A DNA stretch of 64,000 nt from Sinorhizobium numidicum (GTDB lineage: Bacteria; Pseudomonadota; Alphaproteobacteria; Rhizobiales; Rhizobiaceae): contig NZ_CP120369.1 of the NCBI RefSeq assembly GCF_029892045.1, forward strand, positions 124,001-188,000, given 5' to 3'. Positions 4,494 to 61,378 of the stretch are shown piece after piece (within the stretch, counting starts at the first letter, position 1; each line of letters begins with the position of its first letter). The notes under the pieces were generated by a model. That model did no database searches. It was not told where the DNA came from and saw nothing but the letters and a program-made list of their open reading frames with translations. Both the position numbers and the translations under genes were made by a program.

Positions 4494-4520
4494 CGTGAAG
4501 ACAGGGGGAGATTGCTAAGC

Positions 4521-27617: not shown

Positions 27618-29186
27618 ATGAGAATAATTTCGATCAAGCCGGATCATGATGGCGCAATTGCAGCACTGGACACATCGGCAGCCGAGCTCATCTATTCATA
27701 CGAGCCTGAGAAAGATAGCTTTCCTAGATATTCGGCCATCAACCCAACGACGGTTCTCGACGCCGCTGGCCGCCTCGACGCCATTCCGGATGTGATTGCT
27801 ATCGGTGGGTGGCGGAAGACGGCGATGGCAAGCGACAGCGCCGTCACGGCAGGCTACGAGGGCGTAGCCCAAGGGTCGGAGGTTGTCGGCGAGAAGACCT
27901 TGTTCGGCAGGAAGGTGCACTTCTATTCCTCGACGCACGAGCGCTCCCACCTCTGGGGCACATACGGCATGTCGCCGTTCCCCGCCGGAATGCCCTGTTA
28001 TTTGCTGATCTGGGAAGGGGTGTTCGGGGATTTCTATGAAATTGATGAGCGCCTGCGGGTCGTGCATTTGGGAAAAGTGATGGCGAGCCCTGGCGACAAG
28101 TATGCCTTCCTCTATGCGCTGGCCGACCCGAACAGAGGACGGTTGCACGTCGAAGACGCGGGTAAGCTAATGGCGCTTTCCGCCTATGGGCAGACCGGAT
28201 CGCCAGACCGGGACGAGCAAGCGCTGATAGATTTCCTGCTTCCACGCCACGGCATTCTGAGCTCCTCAGTGAGAAAGGAGGATTTGCGGAGTTCGCCCTA
28301 CCATAACATTGGCGTAACCCATCAGAAGTTCACCAATCTCGCCAAGCGCGTTTCGGACGCCATCTTCGATTCGTTCCACACTTTTGCAAAGAAGAATCTG
28401 ACAAAGGGATTCCCGCTGCTGATTGCCGGCGGGTGCGGATTGAATTGTGAGTGGAACCGCCGTTGGCTCGAAACAAACCTTTTTTCTGATGTTTTCATAC
28501 CGCCGTGCGCAAATGATACAGGCTCGGCAATCGGGACCGCCGTCGACGCGATGCGGCATTTCACCGGCAATGCTAAAATCAAATGGAATGTCTATTCAGG
28601 CCAGCCATTCATACTTGACGACTTCGACAGGACCGGAGTCGAGGTCCACCCGCTCGACTACCATCAAGTCGCCTCGGCGTTGCTCGATGACAAGGTGATT
28701 GGTTGGGTACAAGGGAATTGCGAAATCGGACCGCGCGCACTCGGCAACCGGTCAATTCTCGCGGCGCCCTTCTCAAAGGCAACCCACGAGCGGTTGAATC
28801 GCATCAAGAAGCGGGAGGGTTTCCGTCCGATCGCGCCGGTTTGCCTGGAGGAAGATATCGCGCGCCACTTCGACTTGACACGCCCGTCGCCCTACATGCT
28901 CCTTTTCCAGAAGGTTATCGATAGCCGGTTGAAGGCTGTCACGCATGTTGACGGCACAGCGCGGGCCCAGACAGTTTCGCGGGAGCAGAACTTGCACCTC
29001 TTTCAGTTGTTGACCTCGTTTAAGGCGAGAAGCGGGGTCGGCGTTCTTTGCAACACATCCCTGAACTTCAATGGCGCCGGCTTCATCAATCGTGCAAGCG
29101 ATTTGCTGACCTATGCCCAGGCTACAGGTCTCGACGGATTTGTTATCAACGACGCTTTCTATCTCCGTAAGATGCCCATTGCGTAA
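27618..29186 (+). CDS. Carbamoyltransferase of the NodU/CmcH/TobZ family
   Basis: This 522-aa protein has the N-terminal Kae1-like half: MRIISIKPDHDGAIA, His-containing SSTHERSHLWGTYGMSP, and GGCGLNCEWNRR. The C-terminal carbamoyltransferase half has VIGWVQGNCEIGPRALGNRS, the ILAAPF segment, KKREGFRPIAPVCLEED and LCNTSLNFNGAGF. Members move a carbamoyl group from carbamoyl phosphate, via carbamoyl-AMP, to a sugar hydroxyl. NodU and NolO do this on Nod factors, others on antibiotics. The sequence does not clearly equal NodU or NolO and no nod box was found. A sigma-54-type promoter suggests expression in symbiosis. Confidence 0.85.
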   Translation: MRIISIKPDHDGAIAALDTSAAELIYSYEPEKDSFPRYSAINPTTVLDAAGRLDAIPDVIAIGGWRKTAMASDSAVTAGYEGVAQGSEVVGEKTLFGRKVHFYSSTHERSHLWGTYGMSPFPAGMPCYLLIWEGVFGDFYEIDERLRVVHLGKVMASPGDKYAFLYALADPNRGRLHVEDAGKLMALSAYGQTGSPDRDEQALIDFLLPRHGILSSSVRKEDLRSSPYHNIGVTHQKFTNLAKRVSDAIFDSFHTFAKKNLTKGFPLLIAGGCGLNCEWNRRWLETNLFSDVFIPPCANDTGSAIGTAVDAMRHFTGNAKIKWNVYSGQPFILDDFDRTGVEVHPLDYHQVASALLDDKVIGWVQGNCEIGPRALGNRSILAAPFSKATHERLNRIKKREGFRPIAPVCLEEDIARHFDLTRPSPYMLLFQKVIDSRLKAVTHVDGTARAQTVSREQNLHLFQLLTSFKARSGVGVLCNTSLNFNGAGFINRASDLLTYAQATGLDGFVINDAFYLRKMPIA

Positions 29187-40796: not shown

Positions 40797-42230
40797 TCAG
40801 CTTTCCCGCAAGCCTCTGCGAAAGGCTGCCCGGAAAGGTTCGATCATGTAGTCGAAGGCGGTTTGCTCGGCCGTCACGATCAAGACCTCCGCAGGCATTC
40901 CCGGAACGAGGGAAAGGCTTTTGTCGAGAGAGGCAAGCTCTTCGTTCGGCACCTCCACGCGTGCGAGATAGTAGGCTTGGCCTGTCGCCTCGTCGACGAT
41001 GCGATCGGCAGAGAGAGTTCGGACCACGCCTTGCACACGGGGCAAGCCCCTGTTTGAAAATGCGGTGAGGTGAACAGTCGCGGTAAGCCCCACCGTCACG
41101 ACATCGATATCGCCAGGAGCTATCCGCGCGTCTATGAGTAGCCGCTCCTCCGTCGGCACGATCTCGAGGATCGGTTCGCCGGGCAGGATAACCCCGCCGA
41201 CCGACTTGAAATGCAGATTCACGACCTTGCCGCTTACCGGAGCGGTCAAGGTCGTTCGATTCAGGACGTCCTGGCTAGCATTGAGGCGCTCGGAGACGCT
41301 CGCCAGCTCGGCCCGCACTCTTTCGAGTTCCGTCGACGTTTCCTCCGAGCGCATGGCGCGGAGTGAGATGCGTTGGGTCTCGATCTCGCCGATCTTCTGC
41401 CTGATCTCGGCGATCGAGCCGAGATACCGACCGCGTTCGCCCTGGAGGGCGGCTTGGAAGCGCTGAAGCGTAAGTATTTCTGGCTCGGTGACAAGCGCCT
41501 TGCCGAGCAGTTTCCCCTTTCCTAAAAGCTCCTTCGCGATAAGTTCGATCTGCCGGTCGGCGCTTTCGACTTGTGCCTCCAAGGCGCTGATTTGCTCCCT
41601 CAACTGTTTCTCCCGGTCGTCGAGAACCTGCAGCTGGGCTGCAAATGACGCACGGCGCATTTCAAAGATCGAGATCTGCCCCTGAACGACCTCGCGCAGC
41701 CCAGGATCGCCCTCGGCCAACATTTCCTTCGGGAAGAGGACCGCATCGTTGCCCGCCTGTTCCGCAAGCAAGCGCAGCCGCGTTGCCACAAGGGTTCTCG
41801 ACTGCTCGAGAAGCAGTTCGTTTGCCGCGGCCGCCTGAGTGCTTTGAAGGACCACGATCGGGTCGCCGGCCCGCACTAAATCCCCGTCCCTGACTTTCAG
41901 CGCCTGAATGATGCCGCCTTCCAGGTGCTGTACGGTCCGCCGGCTTCCGTCCGGGCTGATAATGCCGGGAGCTATCGCTCCGGCCGCGATCGGGGCAAGC
42001 AGCGACCACGCAAGGCCGCCAAGGATGAAGATGACGATTACGGCGAAACCAAGCCGGACCGGACCCTTGATCACCTCGCGCACCGTGAGGGATTCCGGCA
42101 GGGCCTCTTGGCGTGGCATCCTGTTCCCTGGAAGCGCAACTACATTCGACCGGCCGTTTGCCACGGGGATTGCCTTCCCATTTGAGGATATTGAGAGGTC
42201 AGGGAAATTCTTGTCGTCCGTACAGTTCAT
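40797..42230 (-). CDS. Type I secretion membrane-fusion (HlyD/PrsE-family) protein
   Basis: This 477-aa protein has a short cytoplasmic N-terminus, one membrane anchor at about residues 56-80 (GFAVIVIFILGGLAWSLLAP), a biotinyl-lipoyl-like half, long alpha-helical hairpin segments (about 130-300) and a C-terminal barrel ending MIEPFRAAFRRGL. It links the inner-membrane ABC exporter to an outer-membrane channel. Its ATG overlaps the exporter stop by 4 bp. No TolC-like gene is present here, so a channel from elsewhere must serve. Confidence 0.93.
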   Translation of the reverse strand: MNCTDDKNFPDLSISSNGKAIPVANGRSNVVALPGNRMPRQEALPESLTVREVIKGPVRLGFAVIVIFILGGLAWSLLAPIAAGAIAPGIISPDGSRRTVQHLEGGIIQALKVRDGDLVRAGDPIVVLQSTQAAAANELLLEQSRTLVATRLRLLAEQAGNDAVLFPKEMLAEGDPGLREVVQGQISIFEMRRASFAAQLQVLDDREKQLREQISALEAQVESADRQIELIAKELLGKGKLLGKALVTEPEILTLQRFQAALQGERGRYLGSIAEIRQKIGEIETQRISLRAMRSEETSTELERVRAELASVSERLNASQDVLNRTTLTAPVSGKVVNLHFKSVGGVILPGEPILEIVPTEERLLIDARIAPGDIDVVTVGLTATVHLTAFSNRGLPRVQGVVRTLSADRIVDEATGQAYYLARVEVPNEELASLDKSLSLVPGMPAEVLIVTAEQTAFDYMIEPFRAAFRRGLRES

Positions 42231-44005
42231 TCGCCGATCCTTTCGGTGAGGCGCGGCGGAGCCGCGGCGGCATCGCGCAGTTGCGGCTCCAGGCGCTTTG
42301 ACTCACCGCCAGCCAACTGAAGCCTGCCGAGGACATCTTCACGCGCGCCGAAGAGTTCGACGCGCCCTTCGCGGAGGAACAGGATCTTGTCGGCCTGAGC
42401 CAGGGTCGAGGGGCGGTGGCCGACGATCATGAGGGCGGCGCCGCGCTCCTTCAGCGTCCTCACCGCGGCGGCGAGCGCTGTCTCGCCGGACTGGTCGAGA
42501 TTCGCGTTGGGTTCATCCAGGATGATGATCTTGGGATTTCCGAACACGGCACGCGCCAGGCCGATGCGCTGCCGCTGGCCACCTGAGAGCCGTGCGCCTG
42601 CATCGCCGATCGGCGTCTCGTAGCCTTGTGGAAGGCGCTGGATCATCTCGTGGGCGTGCGCCAGCATCGCTGCCTCAACGACTTCGTCGTCGTCCGCCCT
42701 GGCCATGCGTGAGATGTTGTCGCGGATGGTGCCGGAAAACAGCTCCACGTCCTGCGGCAGGTAGCCGACATAGCGGCCCAGCTGTTCCGGGTTCCAGTGG
42801 TGGAGTTCGGAGCCGTCGAGCCTGATTTCTCCACCCGACGGTGCGGCAATCCCGGCAATCAGGCGACACAGCGTGCTCTTGCCGCTGGCCGATGGTCCGA
42901 TCACCGCCAGGGCCTCGCCAGGCGTCAGGCGGAAACTGACATCATCTATAACGTGGGTCTTGGTCGCGGGCGCGGCGTAGGAGACATGCTTGAGGGAGAT
43001 GTGTCCGTGGGGTTCCGGCAGGCGTGTCCGCTGTGCTTCGACGGGGATACCCTGCAGGCGCGACTTGAGGCGGTCATAGGCGATCCGCGTCGCCAAGAAG
43101 TTCCGCCAGCTTCCCATCGCGACTTCGATTGGAGCGAGCGCCCGACCAAGGAGGATCGAAGACGCGATCATGGCGCCGCCAGTCACTTCTCCGTTCAGAA
43201 CCAAATAGGCGCCAAGCCCGAGCGTGGCCGACTGGACGAAGAAGCGTAGGAACTTGGTAAACCCCAGTATCGCGGCGCCGCGTTCCGACGAGGAACGGGT
43301 TGCATCGAGCGAGGAAGCGTTGCTCGCCCGCCAGCGTTCGAGCAGTCCGGGGAGCATTCCCATCGCGCGCACCACTTCGGCGTTCCGGATCGTTGACTCA
43401 GCCTGCTGGAATGCCGCGATCTGCTTGGTGCTGGCGGTCTGGGACGCTCGCCGCGTCGTCAGCTCGTTGAGCAGGGTGAGCAGCGTCAGAAGCAGTGCCG
43501 CGCCGACTGCAAGGGTTCCCAGCGCCGGATGGAGCAGCCAGATGAGGGCGAGGAAGACGGGCGTCCACGGCGCGTCAAAAAGCGCGGTCAGTCCTTGCGA
43601 GGACAGGAAGGACTGCACCTGGGCGAGATCGCGCAGAGGCTGTGCGCCGGCATTGTCGCCGACTAGCCGGGCACGCACCCCACCCGAGATCAGCACTGGC
43701 CCCAGCCTGTCGTTCAGCCAGCACCCCATCCTGACCATCACCGAGCTGCGCAGGCTGTCGAGCACGCCCAGGACAAGCAGAGCGCCCCCGGCGAAAACCG
43801 TCAGTAGGACGAGCGTCTCTACCCGGCCGGACACGAGAACACGATCGTAGACCTGCAGCATGTAAAGCGGCGACGTCAGCATCAGCACGTTGATGGCGAA
43901 GCTGAACATGGCGAGCACCAGGAGAGACGAGCGAATTTGTCCTGTCGCGTAATCCAGGTCCGTCTTGCTGCGCCGACGCTTGTCGGCCGATGCTTTTGCT
44001 GCCAT
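42227..44005 (-). CDS. Type I secretion ABC exporter (PrtD/HasD family)
   Basis: This 592-aa protein has an N-terminal membrane domain with about six helices (residues 25-320) and a C-terminal ATPase with Walker A GPSASGKST, signature LSGGQRQRIGLARA, Walker B IIILDEPNANLD and switch His in VGHRP. There is no C39 peptidase domain, so the cargo keeps its C-terminal secretion signal. It lies 27 bp after the RTX gene and overlaps the adaptor gene. The operon order is cargo, exporter, adaptor. Confidence 0.95.
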   Translation of the reverse strand: MAAKASADKRRRSKTDLDYATGQIRSSLLVLAMFSFAINVLMLTSPLYMLQVYDRVLVSGRVETLVLLTVFAGGALLVLGVLDSLRSSVMVRMGCWLNDRLGPVLISGGVRARLVGDNAGAQPLRDLAQVQSFLSSQGLTALFDAPWTPVFLALIWLLHPALGTLAVGAALLLTLLTLLNELTTRRASQTASTKQIAAFQQAESTIRNAEVVRAMGMLPGLLERWRASNASSLDATRSSSERGAAILGFTKFLRFFVQSATLGLGAYLVLNGEVTGGAMIASSILLGRALAPIEVAMGSWRNFLATRIAYDRLKSRLQGIPVEAQRTRLPEPHGHISLKHVSYAAPATKTHVIDDVSFRLTPGEALAVIGPSASGKSTLCRLIAGIAAPSGGEIRLDGSELHHWNPEQLGRYVGYLPQDVELFSGTIRDNISRMARADDDEVVEAAMLAHAHEMIQRLPQGYETPIGDAGARLSGGQRQRIGLARAVFGNPKIIILDEPNANLDQSGETALAAAVRTLKERGAALMIVGHRPSTLAQADKILFLREGRVELFGAREDVLGRLQLAGGESKRLEPQLRDAAAAPPRLTERIGE

Positions 44006-44032
44006 TCCCCAATCCCCCTTCTTGGCTCGATC

Positions 44033-47000
44033 TCAAGCAATCAGAGCCGGATCGATGAACAGGTCGTTCGCAATGAGCGTATTGAGCGCCGCGCCCGCCT
44101 GGGCCTGGCTGACCGAACTCTGGGCGCCCAGAGCGACGTATGTCTGATGGGTGGTACCGGTAAACCGGCCGGCCCATGTTGCCACGCCGCCGATGCTGAT
44201 CGCGGTGAGCGCAATCCCGCCTGTTGCGTTGAGACTGTTCAAGAAGAGATCTTCACCGGTCTGATAGTCGGCAATCACATTGCCTGTGCCGCCAAGAATC
44301 CGGTACGTATCCTGACCGGCCAGGCCGCCATCGGCGATTCCATCGCCGAACAAGGTCTTGGCGCCGGTTCCCGTTGCCGAGAGAATGTCGGCGCCACTGC
44401 CACCCCGCATCTGGTCATTGCCGGAACCGCTGACCAGCTTGTTGGCCGCGGTGCTTCCGAACAGTTGATCGCTGAAATTCGAACCGATGACGTTTTCCGT
44501 CTGCAGGAGCAAATCTCCGTCGGCTTCGCCCCCTTGGCTGAGACCTCCGGATGTTCCGCTGAAGAGGCGCGCCAACACTCCGCCCGTGGAGGCGGAATAG
44601 TCGATCGTGTCGATGCCTGCTCCGCCGATGATGATTTCTGTGATCCCGCCCGCGGATGAGCCGCCCGCGCCGCTGCGGAAAGTGTCGTTTCCGCCGCCGC
44701 CGTCGAGACGGTTCACGCTGGCATTGCCGACCAGAAGGTCGTCGAAATTGGAGCCGATGAGATTCTCGATCGTGCTGAGCTGGTCGCCCTGCGCATCGCC
44801 GCCGTTGCCGAGCGCCGCGCCCGTATTGTCGAGGACGATTGTAACGCCAGCGCCGGAGGTCTGATAGAAAGCAGTGTCGGTTCCAGCGCCGCCAATTAGC
44901 ACGTCCGCGCCCGCGCCGCCTATCAGCACATCGTTCCCCGCGCCACCATCGAGTCGGTTGGCAACCGATGCACCAATTAGCTGGTCATCGAACACAGAGC
45001 CAATGATGTTCTCCATCGTGACGAGGACGTCGTTCTGCGCGTCGCCACCGCTCGAAAGTGCCCCACTGGTTTGACTGTCCGACAGCCTGGCAATCACGGC
45101 AGCGCCTGAAGTCGAATAGTCGGCCGTATCGATGCCTTCGCCGCCGATGAGGAATTCGGTTCCCGTGTTGGCGCCGCCGCGTATAAAATCGCTCCCCGCG
45201 CCGCCGTCGATGCGGTTCGTCAGGGCGTTACCGGTCAAAATGTCGTCAGCGCCCGAGCCGATCAGGTTTTCGATCGAAGTCAGTATATCGCCTTCGGCGT
45301 CACCGCCGACGCCGAGCGCCGCGCCCGTGTCGTCCAGCGTTATGGAAACGCCCGCAGCGGAGGATGAATATTCGGAGGTGTCTGTCCCGAGTCCGCCATT
45401 GATGAAATCCGCGCCACCGCCGCCCATGAAGGTGTCGTTGAGTTCGCCGCCGTTCAGCGTGTCGACAAAGGCTGAGCCGATGATCCGCTCGATGAGCTGA
45501 AAGGTATCTCCCTCGGCATCGCCACCGGTTCCGGTTCCGATTGCCAAAGGATCAAGCACGGTCGTGTTTAGGTTGATGGTGACGCCGACAGCTGACGTCG
45601 AGTAGTCGGAGGTGTCGAGTCCTCCCTGGCCGACGATCTGGTCGGCTCCGGCGCCGCCGGTGAAGGTATTGTTGTTGCCGTCGCCGACCAGAATGTCGTC
45701 CTGACTCGAGGCCATGATGTTCTCGATGTTCACCAGAACGTCGCCGGCCGCCGCGCCGCTGACGACGCCAGTTCCCAGATTGATCCCGACGGCGCCGCCA
45801 GCGGCATAGCTCACGGTGTCGTTTCCCGCGCCGCCATCCATCTGGTCGGCCTCAGTGCCAGTTAACATCATGTCGTCGCCATCACCGCCATTCAGAATGT
45901 CGCCGCCGTTAAGGGGATCGCCGTCGCCACCGCCGCCGTTCAGGACGTCGTCGCCAGCGCCGCCGTTCAGAATGTCGTCGCCGGAGCCTGCCAGGAGCTC
46001 GTCATTGCCGTCGCCACCTTCAAGAATGTCATTGCCGATCGAAGCGTTGAGGAAGTCGTCGCCAGCGGCGCCGCGTAGGGTGTCGTTGCCAAGGCTCGCC
46101 AAGAGGGTGTCGTTGCCAGCGCCGCCGTCGAGCACGTCGTCACCGTCGCCGGCGTTGAGCAAATCGACGCCGTATCCGCCATGCAGCACGTCGTTGCCGA
46201 ACCCGCCGATCAGAGTGTCGTTGCCGCCGCCGCCGTAGAGACGGTCGTTGCCGAAGCCGCCGTCAAGGACATCATCGGCTCCGACCTCGTCCTCATCCAC
46301 CCCGTCCGGAATGCCGTCCATGTTCTCGTCGTCCGGCAAACCGTCCATATCGACGTCTACTATGCCGTCGCCTACGAGGAGATCGTTGCCGTCCATGCCG
46401 CGCAGGATATCCTCTCCGGCATTTCCGACGAGTTGGTTGTCGAGTCGATTGCCGGTGAGCAGGTCGTTTCCGGCTGAGCCAGTCAGGTTCTCGATGCTGC
46501 TCAGCGTGTCGCCGGCGGCGTCGCCTCCGTAACCGCGTGATGTCCGGCTGGGGTCGGACGGAAGCGAAACTGTCACGGCAAGGACGGAGATGGAATAATC
46601 GGCGGTGTCGATGCCCGCCCCGCCGTTCAGCATGTCCGCGCCAGCGCCGCCCCGCAAGACATCGTTGCCCGCATTACCGTTCAGGGTGTCGATGCCTGCA
46701 CCGCCGTCGAGAAAATCATCGGTCCCGGCCGCATTCAGCTTATCGTTGCCTGCGCCGCCGTCGAGATAGTCATTGCCGGTGCTCGTGGCTGCCAAGGTGA
46801 TGTCGTCGTTGCCATCGAGGCCCTCTATCCGGAAGCTGCCATCGGCCGCATGCGTATAGGTGTTGCCGCTGTTGGTGAGCTGGACGAGCGTGTAGGCAGG
46901 CGACGAAACCAGTGCCGACGTCGTGGCAAGGCTCGTGAAGGACTGCTGCGCCACCGGACCGACATTGGAGGACGGCGCATTGATCGACGGCGATGCGGTA

Positions 47001-47047
47001 TTGGACGATACGGTCGATGACCCACGGGATTTCGAAATACGAGCCAC
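44033..47047 (-). CDS. Large RTX calcium-binding secreted protein
   Basis: This 1004-aa acidic protein is composed almost wholly of GGxGxDxLx nonapeptide repeats in about 70-80-residue modules, each with NLIGS/NIIGS...DD.L.GN...[10 protein letters not shown]. Between repeats at about 265-305 sits an Asp-rich [19 protein letters not shown] segment like thrombospondin-type-3 calcium loops. It ends in a repeat-free region suited to type I export. GTG 47047 was chosen for GAGGAGGG 5 bp upstream. A longer in-frame start runs through the terminator at 47195-47226. Cargo of the adjacent exporter. No enzymatic domain is visible, so an adhesin or surface-layer role is likely. Confidence 0.92.
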
Positions 47048-47194
47048 TTTGCCCTCCTCTATGTCGACGTGCCTCTCGGCGTGCTCTGGACGGTATGCTA
47101 GGGGGCATTTGCCCGGACCGACACAACGCGTTGGTGGACCATTCTTCGGGCGTACACCCTTGGTGGGGTGGGTAATCCCAGGCGCCCCACACGC

Positions 47195-47226
47195 AAAAAA
47201 GGGACCCTGCCATAAGCAGGGTCCCT
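47195..47226 (-). terminator. Intrinsic terminator after the small acidic-protein gene
   Basis: A GGGACCCTGC / GCAGGGTCCC 10-bp stem with a 5-base loop is followed on the minus strand by TTTTTT (47200-47195). It is placed about 55 bp past the stop of the 93-aa gene and ahead of the RTX operon, so the RTX operon needs its own promoter in 47048-47195 or read-through. Confidence 0.85.
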
Positions 47227-47281
47227 CACGCTCCGGAGAGTTGGGGCCAGCCGCTTCCCGGAGCGACAAGCTCGGCTTCGC

Positions 47282-47563
47282 TTAGGCGACCGCGGAGTGG
47301 CCCACAGCGGTGATCGACGACAGCTCGTCTTCAATCACGAGGACAACCAGGTCCAGCTCTGTGGAGGTATCTTTGCCGATGGCCTCAACGTCGATCGCAA
47401 AGGTCGCTTCGTTGCCGTCAATGTTGACGTCGACCCAGTAGTCGACATTGACATCAACGTCTTTGTAAAAGTCGATGTCGACGTCGGATTCGAATTCGAA
47501 TTCCACGTCGACGTCGATTTCCTTCTCGAATTCGAATTCATTGGGATCGCACCAGTAGGACAT
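47282..47563 (-). CDS. Small acidic protein sharing the RTX-locus C-terminal module
   Basis: This 93-aa protein, strongly acidic in its first half with alternating Asp/Val and Glu/Phe (FEFEKEIDVDVEFEFES, DVDIDFYKDVDVNVDY), is likely an all-beta, calcium-binding strand array. Residues 45-93 (DVNIDGNEATFAIDVEAIG, VLVIEDELSSITAVG) match the ends of the 246-aa and part of the 515-aa neighbours. AAGGAG stands 8 bp before the ATG and a terminator follows. No signal peptide is present. Function unknown. Export by the adjacent type I system is an inference. Confidence 0.7.
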   Translation of the reverse strand: MSYWCDPNEFEFEKEIDVDVEFEFESDVDIDFYKDVDVNVDYWVDVNIDGNEATFAIDVEAIGKDTSTELDLVVLVIEDELSSITAVGHSAVA

Positions 47564-47846
47564 AGTTTCACTCCTTTAGCGTGGTTATGTCAGGCTCCTG
47601 CGCTGACATGGGAAGATTAAGTCTGGTGTGAAGCGGAAGCAAAGAGGCACTAGGCGTACAAAACTAAGGGAGTATTCGTATACGCTTTGTAACACTATCG
47701 AGAAAATATTGCCGCTATCCGATGCATTGCGATGAAAGAACTCGCTACGTCCAATTTACGATTTCGAAAGCCAGGATTATATTTAAAAATACGTGATAGA
47801 ACGCGCTCGTGCGCGATTTATCCAACCATTCACCGACGAGGGTTTC

Positions 47847-48587
47847 TTATCCAATGGCGACGACGACAACCGAGGTAACAGTGGAAATCTGATCCTCGAC
47901 AACGAACGCATCGGCGGACACCTCAGCCCGCGTGTCGGAACCGAACGCATAGGCCTCGATATCGAATGCCGCGAAGTTTCCGTCGATGTCGACGTCGTAA
48001 CCCAAGCCCCCCTCGACGTCAGGTTCGTCGCAGCCGCATTCGGGCGAGAGGTAAGGCTGCGCATACTCCTGCGGAAGCTGTGTTTCGGGAACGTACTCCG
48101 GAACCGCTTGCTCGGAGCCGGCACCTCCGCCGGCTGAAAACTGCAGCGCATGAACGCTCGCCGAGACTTCCGACACGGTCGTCGACCCTGTTTCGTCCTG
48201 GACCGTATAGGTGGTCGAGTGGCTGCTGCCAAAGTAGATGTCGGCCCCGCCATAAACCTCCATCAGGGCAGTTGCGACCGCGTAAGCATTGCCGTCGGGC
48301 GACTGCGCAGCCGCGATTACCTCTACGGAGGCGAACGCGGAGTCAACATATGTGCCGTCGGAAACGGTCGCGTTCACCTCGAGCTCGGCCAACGTATCGA
48401 TCCCCAAGGCTGTGGCGTCGGCCTGGACTCCCACACCGAACCCTGTGCCCTCGGCGTTTGACAAATCCCCGACGAACACCGTGGTCTCAGAGGCATAGGA
48501 GTCGGAATAGGGTTCGCTACCGGCATCGCCGCCTGAGGTCGAAACGCCGGTGCTTACGGTGGATGTACGGGTCGTAGACATGTGCAC
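47847..48587 (-). CDS. 246-aa acidic beta-rich protein of the RTX locus
   Basis: This Ser/Thr/Ala/Asp-rich protein has no Sec signal peptide or membrane helix. Alternating strands with TVFVGDLSNAEGTGFGVGV and ADATALGIDTLAELEVNATV suggest a beta-helix or beta-roll. There is a short Cys pair at PECGCDEPD. The C-terminus (YDVDIDGNFAAFDIEAYAFG, AFVVEDQISTVTSV) shares its module with the 93-aa and 515-aa neighbours. ATG at 48581 is an alternative start. The gap 47564-47846 is AT-rich and includes GTATTCGTATAC, with no gene. Confidence 0.7.
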   Translation of the reverse strand: MHMSTTRTSTVSTGVSTSGGDAGSEPYSDSYASETTVFVGDLSNAEGTGFGVGVQADATALGIDTLAELEVNATVSDGTYVDSAFASVEVIAAAQSPDGNAYAVATALMEVYGGADIYFGSSHSTTYTVQDETGSTTVSEVSASVHALQFSAGGGAGSEQAVPEYVPETQLPQEYAQPYLSPECGCDEPDVEGGLGYDVDIDGNFAAFDIEAYAFGSDTRAEVSADAFVVEDQISTVTSVVVVAIG

Positions 48588-48799
48588 TCCTCCATCTCGT
48601 CTATTGCGTCAAGACACCATACACCTGACGTTGGTGGATATCAGACGTTCAAATGTTGGATACGTCCAATGGTCCTGGAAGGGCCCAAGGCTCGGAATCG
48701 CTATAGGTCGTTGTGGGAGGGTCAGGCGAAAGTAGCTATGTCTTTGGAGTGGCGGCGAGGCCGCTTCGCTCGGGCCTACGGAATTCGCCGTGCCGGCCG

Positions 48800-50347
48800 T
48801 TATCCGAGCAAAGACAAAAGGCCGCCGAGTTGCAGGAACAGTTGAGCCTCCTGCACGTCCTGACCGTCGTCGGCCTCAAGCGAGATCGCTCCGAGCAGCG
48901 CTCCCGCTTCTGAGTCGCTGAAGATGCCCCTGCGCGGCATGCCGGCGTAACCCGGGTTGAGCGCGAAGAACTCGTCCAACGTCAGTTCGGAGCGGCGGTC
49001 AAAAATATCGAAGGTAATCACAAGGTCATCCGCATCTCGCGACGAACGCTGCATGTTGAACGCGCCTCGCCCGAGCGACACGACCTCTTCCAGTCCGGAA
49101 ATGGCCAGGCGGTCGCCTCCTCCTTTCGAGAAGTCCTGGATCACGTCCCGATCGAAGCTCGCGACGAGAAGGAACAGGTCGCTGCCACTCCCGCCACCAT
49201 AGACGTCGCGGTCGTCGCCGCGTTGAGCGCCAAGCCGGAAGATGTCGTCGCCAGCGCCGCCATCCAGGCAGTCGCGGCCTTCGCCGCCGCACAGGACGTC
49301 GTTCCCGGCCCCGCCGTTCACTGAATCATTGTCGTCACCGCCAAAGAGAAGATCGTCTCCGCCGCCGCCGCGAACCGTGTCGTCCCCCTCGCCGCCGAAG
49401 ATCCAGTCGGCGCCTTCGTCGCCGTGCAGTCGGTCCGTGCCACCTTCGCCAAGGACGGTGTCGCTTCCCGCCCCTGCGTGAACCGTGTCGCTGCCCCGGC
49501 CTGCGAAAATCCAGTCATCCCCGGCACCTGACAGAACATTGTCGCCACCGGCTCCTGCAAAGACGAGCGTGTCGCCGGGCCCGGTGCTGATGCTGTCCGG
49601 CCGCGACGACCCGACGATCTCCGTGTAGGCTACTTCGGCGCTGACCGCTGCGGTCGCGGAGACCGTGACCGTGGACAGCGCGTCCTCTACCGTCACCGCA
49701 TCGGCCTGAACCTCCACGAAACTGTTATCGCCTGCCGCGACGGCATCGACGTTGAAGAACGCCGAATTTCCTTGCAACGCCCCGATGTTCGCGTCCGCGG
49801 TGTGGGATTCCGCCCTTTCGACCTGTATCTGGCAACCGAGATCGAACTTCAAGCCGATAGCCGCGAAGCTCAGGCTCGTCGTTTCGGCCATTCCGTCGGA
49901 GCCGCTCGCTGTCGCCGTTTCCGTGGACACGACAGACAGATCGGCGCCCGTTATGGCCACGCCTCCGTACGCCGTTGCGAAGGCGGAATTCCCGCGTGCC
50001 GCTGCGGCGAAGCCGGCGCTGCCTATCGCGAATGTAGCGAGTCCGCGGTCCACCACCTGAAGGCTGGCAGTGGCCGTGGCCGTGGAGTCCAGCCCGAATG
50101 CGTCGGCCCCGCCAAAGACGTTCACGGCAAGCGCCTGTTCGGTCTTCAGTGCCCTTGTGACAACCGACGGACCTTCCCGCGGGCTGCTAAAGTCGTAGGG
50201 AGTGCTGAAGTCATACGGAATAAAGTGATGGCAGGGTGACGACCAGATGCCGTCTCCTAACGTGTACGCTCGCATGCTTGGATATCCCTCTAAATCGTGT
50301 TCACGGTCGTACACGCGAGGCGGAAAGACATCGGTTCGATCAGCCAT
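48800..50347 (-). CDS. Second RTX protein with a beta-rich N-terminal region
   Basis: This 515-aa protein has residues about 60-245 as Ala/Ser/Thr-rich strands including the locus-specific module (LQGNSAFFNVDAVAAGD, AVTVEDALSTVTVSA). Then come about ten GGxGxDxxx repeats (about 255-390), a DLFLLVASFDRDVIQDFSKG segment as in RTX C-terminal caps, and a hydrophobic end LFLQLGGLLSLLG suited to type I export. It has the same orientation as the exporter operon. The product is probably another cargo. No catalytic domain is seen. Confidence 0.85.
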   Translation of the reverse strand: MADRTDVFPPRVYDREHDLEGYPSMRAYTLGDGIWSSPCHHFIPYDFSTPYDFSSPREGPSVVTRALKTEQALAVNVFGGADAFGLDSTATATASLQVVDRGLATFAIGSAGFAAAARGNSAFATAYGGVAITGADLSVVSTETATASGSDGMAETTSLSFAAIGLKFDLGCQIQVERAESHTADANIGALQGNSAFFNVDAVAAGDNSFVEVQADAVTVEDALSTVTVSATAAVSAEVAYTEIVGSSRPDSISTGPGDTLVFAGAGGDNVLSGAGDDWIFAGRGSDTVHAGAGSDTVLGEGGTDRLHGDEGADWIFGGEGDDTVRGGGGDDLLFGGDDNDSVNGGAGNDVLCGGEGRDCLDGGAGDDIFRLGAQRGDDRDVYGGGSGSDLFLLVASFDRDVIQDFSKGGGDRLAISGLEEVVSLGRGAFNMQRSSRDADDLVITFDIFDRRSELTLDEFFALNPGYAGMPRRGIFSDSEAGALLGAISLEADDGQDVQEAQLFLQLGGLLSLLG

Positions 50348-55294: not shown

Positions 55295-55717
55295 TCATGC
55301 CGGCTCCCAGGGGTTGATGATGTCTAGTCCAGCGGCCTCGAACGGACTGGTATCGCGCGTAGCAACCATAAAGCCATGCGCAACCGCCGTTGCGGCGATA
55401 TAGCCATCCGCCTTGCCGATGGCCTTGCCTGACGTTTTCGCTTGCGCCATCAGGTCCGCATAACTTCGCGACGCGTCCAAGTCGAAGGGAAGAACGCGCC
55501 CTGCAAGGGCTGGCAAGACCTCTCCTTCCAAGCGATTCTGAAAGATCGTGCGTCGCTTGCCTGCCGGCATGGCCGCCAAGCCGAAACGCAGTTCGGCCAC
55601 CGTAATCGCGGACAAATACAGTGTTTCAATCATCTGCGCATCGATCCAGGCCAACACAGTGCGGTCCGGCTCGGCCTTCCACAATTCGGATATGACGTTG
55701 GTGTCGAGCACGATCAT
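55295..55717 (-). CDS. PIN-domain toxin of a FitAB/VapBC system
   Basis: This 140-aa PIN protein begins MIVLDTNVISELWKAEPD, with further acidic residues in VAELRFGLAAMP (Glu) and GKADGYIAATA (Asp) and a closing TRDTSPFEAAGLDIINPW, as in FitB/VapC ribonucleases. It overlaps the antitoxin gene by 4 bp and is transcribed towards the ISNCY copy. Confidence 0.92.
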   Translation of the reverse strand: MIVLDTNVISELWKAEPDRTVLAWIDAQMIETLYLSAITVAELRFGLAAMPAGKRRTIFQNRLEGEVLPALAGRVLPFDLDASRSYADLMAQAKTSGKAIGKADGYIAATAVAHGFMVATRDTSPFEAAGLDIINPWEPA

Positions 55718-55971
55718 TCGAAGCTCATCGGTTCAGCAGGAGTCTTGTCACGGAGCTGGTTGAAATGCTCCGCTTCGGCATCCGTTAGCCCTCCAGCTTC
55801 ATGGGCAATAGACGCCAATAAAGAGCCGAGTTTGACCCGCTCCGGGGGCCGGACAGTCGTTTCGAGGATGTCGCGGATCTCGGCTTCGGTGCTGCGGCCA
55901 TGCATGGCTGCTCGTACGCGTAGCGCTCGGTGCACCTCGTCGGGCAGGTTCCTAACGGTCACATTTGCCAT
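55714..55971 (-). CDS. FitA/VapB-type ribbon-helix-helix antitoxin
   Basis: This 85-aa protein has an RHH N-terminus (MANVTVRNLPDEVHRALRVR), then HGRSTEAEIRDILETTV and a toxin-binding tail LTDAEAEHFNQLRDKTP. ATG 55971 follows AGGGAAG. An upstream GTG is less likely. It presumably represses the pair. A decayed copy of this gene lies at 59351-59549, beyond the ubiquitin-like operon. Confidence 0.92.
   Translation of the reverse strand: MANVTVRNLPDEVHRALRVRAAMHGRSTEAEIRDILETTVRPPERVKLGSLLASIAHEAGGLTDAEAEHFNQLRDKTPAEPMSFE
55731..55930. repeat. Direct repeat A flanking the ubiquitin-like operon (inside the antitoxin gene)
   Basis: About 200 bp of the antitoxin gene recur in the same orientation at 59351-59549. 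Long blocks are the same, for example CAGGAGTCTTGTCACGGAGC. Confidence 0.8.
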
Positions 55972-56289
55972 GATCACTTCCCTTCAATGACGATATCAAA
56001 GATAGCATTATACATCCAGTGCTATCATACCGCAATATCTCATGGAAGATTTCGCCAATACTTTAGCTGCTCTAATCGATTATAGTTGTGACGAGCAGTT
56101 TTCCGGGGGTTTACTTGCCTCTCAAGTACCGCATAAAAAAAGCCTAGCACCGATTCGGTAGCTTATCCCCTGTCTTTCACGTACTCGCGGTTCGTGGCGC
56201 CGAGTGGACGATCAAAGACCGCCAGCCCGCTCACCAGTGGGTCGGCAGTAGTGCCTTGGGGCCGGTTGGCAAGCCACTGGAGTATGACA
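55972..56289. other. Shared upstream region of antitoxin and ubiquitin-like operon
   Basis: This 318-bp divergent intergenic stretch is AT-rich in its left half. It must hold both promoters. No operator could be defined by eye. Confidence 0.4.
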
Positions 56290-56586
56290 ATGTCGAAGGA
56301 TTCGGGTAAGGGCGATAATCACGGAGGCGGCCCCGGGAAGATCGAAATCATCGTCGTGGTGAACGGCCAGCCTACGCAGGTCGAAGCCAATCCCAACCAG
56401 CCGCTTCACGTCGTTCGCACCAAAGCCCTTGAGAACACGCAAAACGTGGCCCAACCTGCCGACAACTGGGAGATCAAGGACGAGGCCGGCAACTTGCTCG
56501 ACGTCGACAAGAAAATCGGCGATTTCGGCTTCGCGAACACTGTAACCCTGTTCCTCAGCCTGAAGGCGGGTGTCGCAGGTGCCTGA
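56290..56586 (+). CDS. bilA: Ubiquitin-like protein of a Bil-type conjugation operon
   Basis: This 98-aa protein has residues 1-15 as a flexible Gly/Asp tail, then one ubiquitin-like beta-grasp domain: IEIIVVVNGQPTQVEANPNQ, PLHVVRTKALENTQ, NWEIKDEAGNLLDVDKKIGD, ANTVTLFLSLKAG. It belongs to the DUF2604/multiubiquitin-type bacterial UBLs. The end is AGVAGA, not a bare GG, so trimming by the peptidase encoded in the operon may be needed. ATG 56290 is 7 bp after GGAG. ATG 56284 is too close. First gene of four overlapping genes. In Bil systems it is attached to phage structural proteins. The name is inferred from operon architecture. Confidence 0.85.
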   Translation: MSKDSGKGDNHGGGPGKIEIIVVVNGQPTQVEANPNQPLHVVRTKALENTQNVAQPADNWEIKDEAGNLLDVDKKIGDFGFANTVTLFLSLKAGVAGA

Positions 56587-57184
56587 ACTCCAAACTGTGG
56601 ACCCGGAGGTCTCGCGAGCAAAATTTGATCGGGAGATCAGCCGGTTCCGGCCATATGCAGATGCCTATCGGGCTCAAGGCTGCTTCCTGATCGATGCGAG
56701 CTTCCCGAGCGCATTCTTCATATTTGTAAGCCCTAAAGTAAAGCCGCGCGTTATCGGCGCAGCCATCGAGATCGACTTCACCAACTACGACTTAAGACCA
56801 CCGTCTGTGGTCTTTGTCGATCCATTTACGCGCCAGCCGATTGCCCGGAAGGATCTCCCCCTGAATATGTTGAGACGTCTGCCCGGAACGCCGCCGGAAA
56901 TGATTGGAGCTCTCATCCAGCAGAACGCCGTGACGGATTTCATCCAGGCCAACAGTCTCGAGGACCAACCATTCCTGTGCATGGCGGGAATCCGGGAATA
57001 CCACGATAATCCAGCGCACTCAGGTGACCCATGGCTACTTCATCGGGGTTCTGGCGAAGGCTGTTTGGCCTTCATCCTGGACAAGATCATCAAGTACGGG
57101 ACCGGCCCGGTGGAGCAGCTGCAGATTCACTTTCAATTCGCGGTGGGAGGGCTGCTGGTGCCACCTCAGGCCATTCCAGAATGA
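56570..57184 (+). CDS. bilB: E2-like ubiquitin-conjugating enzyme of the Bil-type operon
   Basis: This 204-aa protein overlaps the ubiquitin-like gene. After a predicted UBC-like core (FLIDASFPSAFFIFVSPK, VIGAAIEIDFTNYDLRPPSV) comes FLCMAGIREYHDNPAHSGDP, in which Cys137, His145 and His150 form the likely active site; Cys165 (GEGCLAF) is an alternative. Bacterial E2-like proteins of these operons carry such a Cys-His arrangement. GTG 56570 or GTG 56579 may be the start. Its role is to accept the UBL from the E1 and pass it to the target. Identification relies on order and motif, not on strong sequence likeness. Confidence 0.78.
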   Translation: MSQVPELQTVDPEVSRAKFDREISRFRPYADAYRAQGCFLIDASFPSAFFIFVSPKVKPRVIGAAIEIDFTNYDLRPPSVVFVDPFTRQPIARKDLPLNMLRRLPGTPPEMIGALIQQNAVTDFIQANSLEDQPFLCMAGIREYHDNPAHSGDPWLLHRGSGEGCLAFILDKIIKYGTGPVEQLQIHFQFAVGGLLVPPQAIPE

Positions 57185-57669
57185 CCGCGTTAGAGGATGT
57201 CAGGACAGTCGCCCTCCCCCGAGATTGTGTGTCCACTGCACAGGCGCATCTGCGCTCGGTTGGACAGCAGGGCTATGAAGGAATGGCGCTCTGGGTCGGC
57301 GTTCAGCAAGACCAGCACTTTGCGGTAACAGAAACGGTTATCCCGGCGCAGAGACACATCCGAACGAGCGACGGCGTCTGCGTGATAGTTCCTGCCGAAG
57401 AACTGCACCGCCTAAACGTCTGGCTCTACAAACGTGGCCTGATGCTTCTGGCGCAGATCCACAGTCATCCGGGCCGCGCCTATCACTCGACGACCGATGA
57501 CGCCTACGCGATCGCTACCACGGTTGGGTGTCTCTCGCTGGTAGTGCCGAATTTCGCCCGCGAGCCTTTCGACCTTGCTCGTGTCGCCGCCTATCGACTT
57601 GACGCGAGGGCGAACTGGAATGAGATCCCGTCCGCGGCACTGACGCGAATGATCACGATAACGAGTTGA
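57181..57669 (+). CDS. bilC: JAMM/Mov34 deubiquitinase-like peptidase of the Bil-type operon
   Basis: This 162-aa protein is a single JAB domain with a full zinc signature: Glu33 (GYEGMALWVG), His94-x-His96 (QIHSHPG), Ser103 and Asp106 (HSTTDD). It would trim the UBL precursor or remove it from targets. Its ATG overlaps the E2 stop (ATGA). A longer in-frame start at 57031 would run inside the E2 gene and is rejected. Metal-binding residues are complete, so activity is expected. Confidence 0.92.
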   Translation: MTALEDVRTVALPRDCVSTAQAHLRSVGQQGYEGMALWVGVQQDQHFAVTETVIPAQRHIRTSDGVCVIVPAEELHRLNVWLYKRGLMLLAQIHSHPGRAYHSTTDDAYAIATTVGCLSLVVPNFAREPFDLARVAAYRLDARANWNEIPSAALTRMITITS

Positions 57670-57671
57670 CG

Positions 57672-59231
57672 ATGGCCCTTGCTAATTTCATCGACCGCGC
57701 CGCGACGGCGGCATCTCAGGTCCTGGCCGATTTTCATCTGGGCGACTTCAAAGCGGCTCTTGAAAAGCAGGTCGTGACCGTCGCCTTCGACGATCAGGCC
57801 GCTTCCTGCGCCGAAGGCCAGGCGACGCTAGATCTTGCGGTGAGGTTGCTTGCCAGACTGTATCCGGTTCTGGCAATACTCCCCTTGGACAGTGCGGCGA
57901 CCTCTCAAGCCCAGGCGCTGGAGCGATTGGCAAAGTCGATCAATCCAAAAATCGGCATTCGGCGTTCCGGCAAGTCCGCCATGGTCTGCCTAGTTGCAGG
58001 CGCGACGCGCCCATCACTCCGGTGCCCAACCTTTTTCATCGGATCGGACGGTTGGGCGGCAAAGCTGTCGCGTACGGACCCGGTGGGCTCTGGCTCGAGT
58101 TTGCTGCCCTTTGGAGCTGGCGCCGCCAGTTGCTTCGGCGCCGCCAACGTCTTTCGAACCATCTTCGCCGCCCAGTTAACCGGCGCCGAGTTGGACCAGG
58201 ACATTGACCTCTCGTTATACAGCTACAACAAGACCAAAGCTGGCGATGCCCGCCCGGTTGACCTTCCTGTCGACCTTGGCGAAACGCACCTCGTTGGGCT
58301 CGGCGCGATAGGCCATGGCGCGCTTTGGGCCCTGGCGAGACAATCCGGCCTCTCGGGTCGCCTGCATGTCGTCGACCACGAAGCGGTCGAACTCTCAAAC
58401 CTGCAGCGCTACGTATTGGCCGGCCAAGCGGAGATCGGCATGTCCAAGGCGGTTCTTGCAACCACCGCCCTTCGATCGACCGCTTTAGAGGTCGAGGCGC
58501 ACCCGCTGAAGTGGGCAGAACATGTTGCGCGCCGGGGCGACTGGATTTTCGATCGAGTGGGTGTGGCGCTTGACACAGCCGCCGACCGTCTCGCTGTCCA
58601 AGGTGCTCTGCCGCGATGGATCGCGAATGCCTGGACGCAGGAACACGATCTCGGCATCTCGCGGCATGGTTTCGATGACGGCCAGGCATGCCTTTGTTGC
58701 ATGTACATGCCGTCCGGAAAATCCAAGGACGAGCACCAGCTGATTGCCGAGGAACTCGGGATACCGGAAGCACACGAGCAGGTGAAAGCGCTATTGCAGA
58801 CCAACGCCGGCGTCCCCAACGACTTTGTGGTTCGAGTGGCTACGGCGATGGGCGTGCCTTTTGAGCCGCTCGCCCCGTTTGTTGGCCAACCTCTCCGTTC
58901 CTTCTACCAGCAGGCTATCTGCGGCGGTCTGGTATTCCAGCTTAGCGATGGAAGTCGTCTCGTTCGAACCGTGGTTCCGATGGCGTTTCAGTCAGCGCTT
59001 GCCGGGATCATGCTTGCCGCGGAGCTGGTCAAACATAGTGCGGGTTTTCCCATGAGCCCAACGACAAGCACTCGCGTGAATCTTCTGCGTCCCCTTGGAT
59101 CTCACTTACATGACCCGAAAGCCAAAGACTCGAGCGGCCGCTGCATCTGTAGCGACGAAGATTTCATCTCGGCCTATAGGCGCAAATACGGCAACAGCGT
59201 TGAACCGCTGAGCAACATATCCGCTGCCTAA
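57672..59231 (+). CDS. bilD: E1-like ThiF-family activating enzyme of the Bil-type operon
   Basis: This 519-aa protein has an N-terminal domain of unknown fold (1-200), then an adenylating Rossmann domain with LVGLGAIGHGAL (nucleotide loop at about 208-216), VVDHEAVELSNLQRYVL and a distal AVQGALPRW region. Cys340/Cys343 (ACLCC) and Cys491/Cys493 (RCICSD) look like a zinc site. Cys417 in QQAICGGL is the likely thioester cysteine. It adenylates the UBL C-terminus. ATG 57672 is preferred over TTG 57666, which overlaps the peptidase stop. It closes the four-gene operon. Confidence 0.9.
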   Translation: MALANFIDRAATAASQVLADFHLGDFKAALEKQVVTVAFDDQAASCAEGQATLDLAVRLLARLYPVLAILPLDSAATSQAQALERLAKSINPKIGIRRSGKSAMVCLVAGATRPSLRCPTFFIGSDGWAAKLSRTDPVGSGSSLLPFGAGAASCFGAANVFRTIFAAQLTGAELDQDIDLSLYSYNKTKAGDARPVDLPVDLGETHLVGLGAIGHGALWALARQSGLSGRLHVVDHEAVELSNLQRYVLAGQAEIGMSKAVLATTALRSTALEVEAHPLKWAEHVARRGDWIFDRVGVALDTAADRLAVQGALPRWIANAWTQEHDLGISRHGFDDGQACLCCMYMPSGKSKDEHQLIAEELGIPEAHEQVKALLQTNAGVPNDFVVRVATAMGVPFEPLAPFVGQPLRSFYQQAICGGLVFQLSDGSRLVRTVVPMAFQSALAGIMLAAELVKHSAGFPMSPTTSTRVNLLRPLGSHLHDPKAKDSSGRCICSDEDFISAYRRKYGNSVEPLSNISAA

Positions 59232-59350
59232 GCAGAAGCGGACGTCGCCGTTGCCGCGGACGGGGCGGCAGGGTGTGCGCGTGACAATGTCGGCGCCACT
59301 ATGACACGCTCGGCCTTTTTCTCTGTCTCCGATCGTTCCACGCGAATTCG

Positions 59351-59549
59351 GTCCAGCAGGAGTCTTGTCACGGAGCTGGTTGAAATACTCCGCTTCGGCA
59401 TCGGTCAAGCCCCATGCTTCAAGGGCAGCAGGCGCCAATAAAGAACCGTTTGACCCGCTCCGGGGGATGGGCAATCGCTTTAGAGGATGCTGCGGATCTC
59501 GGCTTCGGTGCTGCGGCCATGCATTGCTGCTCGCACGCGAAGCGCTCGA
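59351..59549 (-). pseudogene. Antitoxin (FitA/VapB) remnant, direct repeat B
   Basis: The sequence copies 55731-55930 with scattered changes and small deletions. The minus-strand frame still reads WGLTDAEAEYFNQLRDKTPA. The start codon region and toxin gene are missing. Immediately beyond, 59625-59670 on the minus strand reads MAKALRKALAEQNVELT, the start of another family (glyoxalase-like). Nothing is seen in 59671-59984. Confidence 0.85.
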
Positions 59550-59984
59550 CGCCAACTGTGCTAAGAACCGTCTTCCGCCACTTCCTGCTTTTGGACGGGT
59601 TCGGCAAGTGGGTAGCTTCCGTTAGTTCGACATTTTGTTCGGCCAGAGCCTTGCGCAAGGCTTTGGCCATGGATTTCGAGCGCGCGAAAACACTAATGGT
59701 TCTTTCCCTTTCTGGGGCGTAATGAAGGTCAGTGCTCGCGTTTCTGACGAGCCGCCCACAGGGTCAAGCCATGAATTTGTGCACTCACCATTCCAGAAGG
59801 AGCGAGCGGCGGGCTTGACGGGCCGACTCGGATGGTAGCCAATTTGCCGTTGATGTCAACGAGGCACAGTCTCCGCTGTCGCGCCCAAAAAGAAGCGAAA
59901 CTGTGATAGAAGTGTTCGTCAGGCCGGAGCAAAGGCTAACGAAGGGCAGCGCAACAATGCTGAAAACCGATACCGCCAATAATG

Positions 59985-60439: not shown

Positions 60440-61378
60440 TCATGTGAACCCTTCAGGCCTCGTTTCTTGTCGTGGCTCAGCGTCACGATTTGGCATCGTT
60501 GCCGCATGGCTTCTCCGCACTACCAGACGGTATTCTCGCCAAGCTGTAAACAGGCCAGCTCCGACTACGATGGCCGCCCCGGCCGCCATGTTCCACGTCA
60601 CAGTTTCACCAAAAAAGACGTACGCGACAATCACGCTCAAGACGAGTTGGAGATACGTGAGGGGCTGAACCTCACCTGCGTTGAGAAGCCCGTAAGCCCT
60701 GATGAGAGAAAAGTGGCTGAGAGCACCGCAAACGCTCAGTGCCGTCATTGCAGGCCAGTCCCCGATATGTATAGGCGTCCAATAGAACGGCCCCACAGAT
60801 GTTACCGCCAGGGCTCCTCCGACACCGGCATATAAGACACTTGTCACGGCGGAGTCGTACTGGCTGACCGCACGCGTGGCGATCCCATACAGCGCGTACA
60901 AAAGACTAGCAGCCAGGGGAAGCAGCAGCTGGATACCGAAATGAGCGCTCACCGGGTTTAGAAGCACCAGAACCCCAGCCAACCCGGCAGCCACAGCGAC
61001 GCCGCGACACCAACCGACCTTTTCCCCGAGTAACGGCACCGACAGAATGGTGACTATCAGTGGAGCCGCTTGGTATATTGCTTGGCTCATCGCTAGCCCA
61101 GCAATCGTGTAAGCGTAGACGATGACAACGATGTTGCTTGCTAGAAGAACACCGCGGAGCAACTGCAGAATTGGTCGCGGCGTGAATAAAGCGCCTCGCA
61201 GGCCTACCGGAGAGTATGCAGCAAGCACCGTTGCAAACGCCGCAAACGCCCAAAAGCGAATCATTGTCACTATAATTGCCGGGTACTTCTCAGCGAGTAG
61301 CCTGGAAAAGCCGTCCTGCCCGGCAAATAGTATCACCGCCAAAAGGACATAAAGATAGCCTGGCGATTTGTCTTGCAT
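60440..61378 (-). CDS. EamA/DMT-family transporter
   Basis: This 312-aa protein has ten predicted membrane helices in two EamA repeats (first PAIIVTMIRFWAFAAFATVL, second with VGGALAVTSVG and LTYLQLVLSVIVAYVFFGE) and a short basic C-terminus. Drug/metabolite-transporter proteins of this size export amino acids or other small metabolites. The cargo is unknown. AAGGAG stands 11 bp before the ATG. It is an isolated intact gene among remnants. Confidence 0.9.
   Translation of the reverse strand: MQDKSPGYLYVLLAVILFAGQDGFSRLLAEKYPAIIVTMIRFWAFAAFATVLAAYSPVGLRGALFTPRPILQLLRGVLLASNIVVIVYAYTIAGLAMSQAIYQAAPLIVTILSVPLLGEKVGWCRGVAVAAGLAGVLVLLNPVSAHFGIQLLLPLAASLLYALYGIATRAVSQYDSAVTSVLYAGVGGALAVTSVGPFYWTPIHIGDWPAMTALSVCGALSHFSLIRAYGLLNAGEVQPLTYLQLVLSVIVAYVFFGETVTWNMAAGAAIVVGAGLFTAWREYRLVVRRSHAATMPNRDAEPRQETRPEGFT

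Follow-up and report, generated by a model that had tools for sequence, protein, structure and literature searches.

What do four tightly packed genes on a symbiotic plasmid of Sinorhizobium numidicum encode, and why do they travel with rhizobial symbiosis genes? The window that we analyzed, i.e. the whole stretch of 64,000 nucleotides (G000:C3:124001-188000) from a 6.72-Mb genome in three contigs, carries the genes on the + strand at positions 56290-59231 as four successive frames with short overlaps or gaps, and its segment 56200-59300 matches a plasmid record from S. numidicum LMG 27395 with 100% identity. A reading of the sequence alone had proposed that they encode, in order, a ubiquitin-like protein (UBL), an E2-like protein, a JAMM peptidase and an E1-like protein, as in the Bil antiphage systems. 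The frames and the Pfam, PADLOC and Protein Data Bank (PDB) matches agree with this order, and the four genes very probably form an entire antiphage bilABCD operon, the ortholog of the rhizobial-type Bil system whose structures have been solved. It is an ordinary copy of a system that is already known, characterized and solved, and as such a clean case of a bacterial ubiquitin-like system being predicted correctly by eye.

The first gene, bilA (56290..56586, + strand), encodes a single-domain ubiquitin-like modifier of 98 residues when started at ATG 56290, or 100 when started at ATG 56284, which matches the Pfam family DUF2604 (2e-36) and the PDB chain 8tyx_A, Ubl(BilA) (5e-59). It is followed by bilB (56579..57184, +), which starts at GTG 56579, with an alternative at GTG 56570, and encodes an E2-like conjugating enzyme with a CEHH motif that matches Metal_CEHH (1.6e-94) and 8tyz_C, E2(BilB) (8e-122). 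The third gene, bilC (57181..57669, +), encodes a JAMM isopeptidase that matches Prok-JAB (3e-6), the PADLOC BilC model (2e-17) and 8tyx_B, the E33A mutant of DUB(BilC) (9e-102); read from 57181 it has 162 residues, the same length as the PDB chain, and the RefSeq start lies 48 bp further downstream. Finally, bilD (57672..59231, +) encodes an E1-like activating enzyme with the catalytic Cys417, matching Prok-E2_C (3e-77), ThiF (3e-14), PADLOC BilD (3e-16, with weaker E1-E2 models also on this protein) and 8tyz_A, E1(BilD) (1112 bits, E 0). The top PDB match of each protein was therefore its cognate Bil chain, near full length, and both the gene order and the type of UBL are those of Bil; the PADLOC search returned no family for BilA or BilB. 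The RefSeq and Pfam names of two of the products ('putative metal-binding' for BilB and 'E2 ligase fold family C' for BilD) are misleading and disagree with the structural assignment in passages of PMC11354881, which make BilB the E2 and describe BilD as an E1 whose N-terminal adenylation domain is inactive.

The sequence-only reading had also held that all of the catalytic positions are intact, and the residues are indeed present. In BilB the CEHH residues are Cys134, Glu140, His142 and His147 counted from GTG 56579; the Cys137, His145 and His150 named earlier are residues of this motif numbered from GTG 56570. In passages of PMC11354881 the corresponding residues of the reference protein are Cys138, Glu144, His146 and His151 (the PDB chain likewise has Cys at 138), and the catalytic cysteine of BilD is Cys417; the CEHH spacing of the window protein matches the one described there, and its numbering differs because 2+2 residues upstream are absent. 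The Cys, the Glu and both His were invariant (20/20) in an alignment of the window BilB with 19 sequences chosen from related loci. In BilC the JAMM residues, i.e. the catalytic Glu and the predicted zinc ligands, are Glu33, His94, His96 and Asp107, with Thr104 where Ser is usual, and Glu33 occupies the identical position to that mutated in the solved chain. BilD contains both Cys417, as expected for the predicted thioester cysteine, and the ThiF adenylation domain.

BilA, as had been pointed out, has a single domain and does not end in GG (AGVAGA). This end is usual in its near relatives: with the window BilB as sole query we found 67 related loci (near relatives only, given that query), and in 62 of these BilA ends in LKAGVAG followed by Ala, Gly, Val or nothing, the window precursor ending in LKAGVAG-A. 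The other five ends are LKVGIVGA (L080), LNAGVAGV (two Methylobacterium), LGAGVAGV (Sphingomonadales) and that of L054, where the frame runs past a disruption. Copies with a final Gly, mostly from Bradyrhizobium, do end in GG. Passages of PMC11354881 state in general terms that proteolysis by BilC exposes a C-terminal reactive glycine of BilA, and a variable final residue after a fixed glycine fits a one-residue propeptide that BilC may remove.

Homology with the solved system suggests how the window copy would work. BilC would trim the last alanine of BilA to leave a C-terminal glycine; BilD would adenylate BilA and then carry it, thioester-linked, on Cys417; BilB would take BilA onto the CEHH cysteine and conjugate it to target proteins; and BilC would be able to take the tag off again. 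For a Bil system, the target reported in print is the central tail fiber of the phage, and an antiphage role for the window copy is likewise expected by homology. The operon itself is a mobile cassette of ~3.2 kb, found on symbiotic plasmids and close to rhizobial nodulation genes.

The distribution of Bil bears on the second half of our question. In the window's genome nodC lies ~100 kb from the operon on the same contig, and the matching plasmid record has nifB further downstream; the replicon is symbiotic, as had been proposed. By record title the 67 loci include two from Methylobacterium, one from a Sphingomonadales metagenome-assembled genome and one 'Bacterium', and the rest are from Sinorhizobium/Ensifer, Rhizobium, Mesorhizobium, Aminobacter and Bradyrhizobium; across 394 sampled genomes of the family, Metal_CEHH was matched in six, in two of these weakly and partially. 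The window's genus is uninformative about a link between Bil and nodC because nodC (scored above cut-off) is found in 31 of its 33 genomes, Bil being found in five. In another genus, judged to be Mesorhizobium (that of G271; n = 146 genomes), 59 genomes had a BilB match and 101 had nodC above cut-off. Six of the 59 were set aside after their scores had been seen, i.e. three with divergent full-length proteins (G397, G494, G155; nodC in one of the three), one with a fragment (G524) and two with weak matches (G409, G480), the last three genomes all having nodC. All 53 of the genomes with a full-length rhizobial-type BilB had nodC, versus 48 of the 93 others (Fisher 1.3e-11, uncorrected for phylogeny, the genomes being non-independent); the 53 include G448, which has a stop inside bilB, and when all 59 are counted 57 have nodC. 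In the same 146 genomes the control families showed no link with nodC, which was present in 36/55 genomes with HSDR_N (p 0.46) and in 11/13 with JetD_C (p 0.35), the latter being too rare (13/146) to serve as a strong control.

Bil and nodC share a contig in at least 24 genomes, giving at least 26 pairs separated by a linear distance of 16-808 kb (median 40 kb); these are 21 pairs in Mesorhizobium, three in Sinorhizobium and two formed by second Bil copies beside a broken nodC, drafts in which the two genes fall on separate contigs being left uncounted. In nine single-contig Mesorhizobium genomes (6.2-7.8 Mb) with rhizobial-type BilB the gap was 25.6-450 kb. The second Bil copies, ~16 kb from the broken nodC (G466:C1:2110519-2129110 and G467:C1:1260298-1278889), suggest the remains of another symbiosis region. 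Two Bil operons per genome were also seen in Rhizobium mesoamericanum (L018/L019) and R. altiplani (L017/L020), with BilB proteins 82% and 87-88% identical to that of the window.

These associations could be read to mean that Bil is a symbiosis-associated protein modification system whose main targets are not phage proteins but rhizobial or plant-encounter ones, a role that would account for its link with nodulation genes. The Mesorhizobium counts, the unlinked controls and the shared contigs favor such a role, but carriage on symbiotic mobile elements explains the nodC link equally well. Moreover, among the 24 genomes behind the loci of other genera (excluding the 'Bacterium' record) 19 had nodC and five did not (two Bradyrhizobium, two Methylobacterium and one Sphingomonadales), and in the window's genus Bil occurs in so few of the genomes that have nodC that it is therefore dispensable for nodulation there. 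Nor is Bil closer to nodC than to rpoB. In 28 genomes picked from those with both Bil and nodC, Bil distances correlated weakly and equally with nodC and rpoB distances (0.33 in both cases), and the partial Mantel correlations (nodC, 0.24, p 0.011; rpoB, 0.23, p 0.029) did not distinguish co-inheritance with nodC from co-inheritance with the chromosome. We regard a primary role in symbiosis as unlikely.

Movement is seen in single cases. Between Aminobacter G563 and Mesorhizobium G417 the differences are 0.9% in bil, 0.8% in nodC and 9.1% in rpoB; between the window genome and G536 they are 1.3%, 22% and 9.4%, respectively. Bil therefore travels with symbiotic elements and is also swapped between them. 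A phage-borne origin was rejected, as a search of 50,697 phage records for BilB found nothing at E 1e-5. We tentatively propose that the rhizobial type of Bil is a specialized passenger of symbiosis plasmids and islands. The ~3.2-kb cassette, whose conserved control region bears palindromes, would be found almost only in nodulating strains, would move between symbiotic replicons of different nodC types, and would be governed by a host or island regulator through which immunity is expressed in a particular symbiotic or infection state; this is possible, though we would not put it at even odds. The literature matches listed contained no paper linking Bil with symbiosis islands or rhizobia, which does not establish absence from print; the association with symbiosis elements, the edges of the ~3.2-kb cassette and the conserved leader described below go beyond the papers that could be read. 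The rhizobial clade is a natural set in which to ask why Bil rides with symbiosis genes.

We also considered whether the operon might have lost its function and be decaying, along with much else on the plasmid. The sequence-only reading had described much of the neighboring DNA as decayed; signs of this were seen only in transposase-like fragments and in a second, partial copy of an antitoxin. Small in-frame deletions in bilB would also fit decay. Set against these are the four open frames, the catalytic residues and ratios of nonsynonymous to synonymous substitution (dN/dS) well under 1, which indicate purifying selection, in line with the earlier suggestion that the operon is probably under selection. 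Pairwise Nei-Gojobori estimates were made against ten relatives, five of them at a useful distance, and for these five (L017, L019, L024, L048 and L055) dN/dS was 0.07-0.29 in all 20 comparisons across the four genes. The remaining values were 0.14-0.33 (L003), 0.14-0.36 (L016) and 0.13-0.75 with one undefined (L004 and L014, which are too close), and L057 was saturated. Of the 67 related loci, 63 had four open genes with the motif patterns matched, in a test that reads open frames and that some frameshifts would escape.

Several observations nevertheless weigh against the view of the operon as an intact Bil system. The window BilB is without the 2+2 residues that the PDB chain and NGR234 have upstream of the catalytic Cys; four of the 67 loci do not fit the intactness pattern, L054 because of stops, L080 because of truncation, and L075 and L078 in their JAMM pattern only; and the Mesorhizobium copy G448 is interrupted within bilB. 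However, the bilB deletions are in-frame and common to other open copies, the same 2+2 residues being absent from S. terangae, Ensifer aridi LMR001, CCBAU 05631 and CCBAU 83666; the R. altiplani BilB has additional deletions in this region. With its open frames and dN/dS values the copy is very unlikely to be decayed, and we rejected that explanation.

The selection analysis revealed in addition that the operon is uneven in its synonymous divergence (dS), which is 0.24-0.32 in bilB and bilC versus 0.05-0.10 in bilA and bilD when compared with NGR234 and S. psoraleae, with a dip in identity to both covering about 56500-57650. The simplest reading is that a bilB-bilC block has likely been exchanged by recombination.

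The last alternative, a thiamine or molybdopterin sulfur-transfer operon made up of ThiS/MoaD, ThiF/MoeB and a JAMM protein, is scarcely credible and was rejected, since BilD, although it has a ThiF domain, earned weak MoeB/ThiF scores (all 16 NCBIfam models matched fell far under their curated cut-offs, the best with 37 bits against 266), BilA matches DUF2604 and the solved BilA, and BilB matches the solved BilB. The outcome that the sequence-only reading had named as its refutation, a better fit to such an operon or a failure of the E2-like and UBL genes to match their folds, thus did not arise.

The bilABCD genes lie within a shared Bil cassette of ~3.2 kb (56052..59315, +), which we delimited by blastn edges and edge alignments; its left edge falls at 56052-56054 and its right edge at 59259-59315 depending on the relative, and the edges are common to five Rhizobium/Mesorhizobium relatives. 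The Bradyrhizobium copy L057 matches the window in the coding part only, its leader having no blastn match. No exact inverted repeats of at least 9 nt were found between 56021-56160 and 59231-59400. The cassette begins with a conserved leader of ~230 bp (56052..56289, +), presumably a control region, with a mean column identity of 80% in an alignment of 12 chosen copies. Two palindromes in the leader are conserved across the bil operons of Sinorhizobium, Rhizobium and Mesorhizobium. The first is the near-perfect, operator-like palindrome CTCTAATCGATTATAG (56070..56085); CTCTAATCGATTAKAG is exact in nine of the 12 leaders, has one mismatch in two and is lost in one, and sites of this type occur at a single place in the window. 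The second, ACCGATTCGGT (56149..56159), lies within the block ACCGAWTCGGTAGC, which is found in all 12 leaders and matches the window once. We read both as candidate operator-like DNA sites, and the leader offers a handle on how Bil gets switched on. A structured RNA leader was rejected, as no Rfam match was obtained up to E 0.1 in 55900-59900 and two-sided changes were seen in none of 53 predicted pairs.

To the left of the operon lies an intact vapBC-type toxin-antitoxin pair (55295-55977), and to its right lies the partial second copy of the antitoxin region (59348-59548), the two forming a direct repeat (101 nt at 86% and 70 nt at 91%) with a spacing of about 3620. The vapBC region is uninterrupted on a plasmid of Rhizobium sp. 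NXC14, which is not one of the 11 plasmids that gave a BilB match, and it is separate from Bil in R. altiplani. This arrangement looks like the outcome of an insertion of the Bil cassette accompanied by duplication of local sequence. The next frame to the right, among kept frames of at least 150 aa, encodes an EamA transporter (60440-61378). Elsewhere in the window, HlyD-type and ABC-transporter genes beside two RTX calcium-binding repeat proteins of 1078 and 515 aa (40800-50347) likely form a type I secretion cluster; a radical SAM/BATS-domain protein with two aminotransferases (4512-8579) resembles, by inference, a biotin synthesis cluster; and a carbamoyltransferase with Carbam_trans_N and _C domains (27618-29183) is possibly of the NodU type.

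Among known systems, Bub and the Cap2/Cap3 proteins of the cyclic-oligonucleotide-based antiphage signaling system (CBASS) likewise combine bacterial ubiquitin-like conjugation with immune-type operons, according to passages of PMC13373217 and PMC12355090, the former describing no demonstrated phage protection for Bub. Unlike these, the window operon matches the BilC and BilD models and the solved Bil chains, and no CD-NTase of the kind expected for type II CBASS adjoins it (vapBC on the left and EamA on the right, in agreement with the RefSeq annotation of the matching record, which is incomplete). The Bil operon of Methylobacterium brachiatum (8U38; locus L075) has the same A, B, C, D order, with 42-59% identity per gene; its solved BilA has 243 aa, of which only the C-terminal part matches the single domain of the window (6e-15). 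Much closer is the operon on pNGR234a, which shares the gene order and the flanking vapBC and is 94.6% identical in DNA over 3.1 kb; its dS from the window is 0.31-0.32 in bilB/bilC and 0.06-0.10 in bilD/bilA, consistent with recombination, and its BilB is four residues longer. On our own reading of passages in Iyer et al. 2006 (PMC1779556), which describe operon type 6c without locus names, the pNGR234a operon is apparently the prototype of that type. The closest counterpart of all four window proteins is the solved BilABCD (8TYX/8TYY/8TYZ/8TZ0), which they match near full length, with agreement of the BilA ends and shared numbering of BilD Cys417 and BilC Glu33; relative to the PDB BilB, the window protein also has one extra Gly. 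These structures are reportedly from the Ensifer aridi system described by Chambers et al. (2024). Among 80 loci, the BilB of S. psoraleae CCBAU 65732 is nearest to the PDB chain (97%), and that of Ensifer aridi LMR001 is 92% identical to it.

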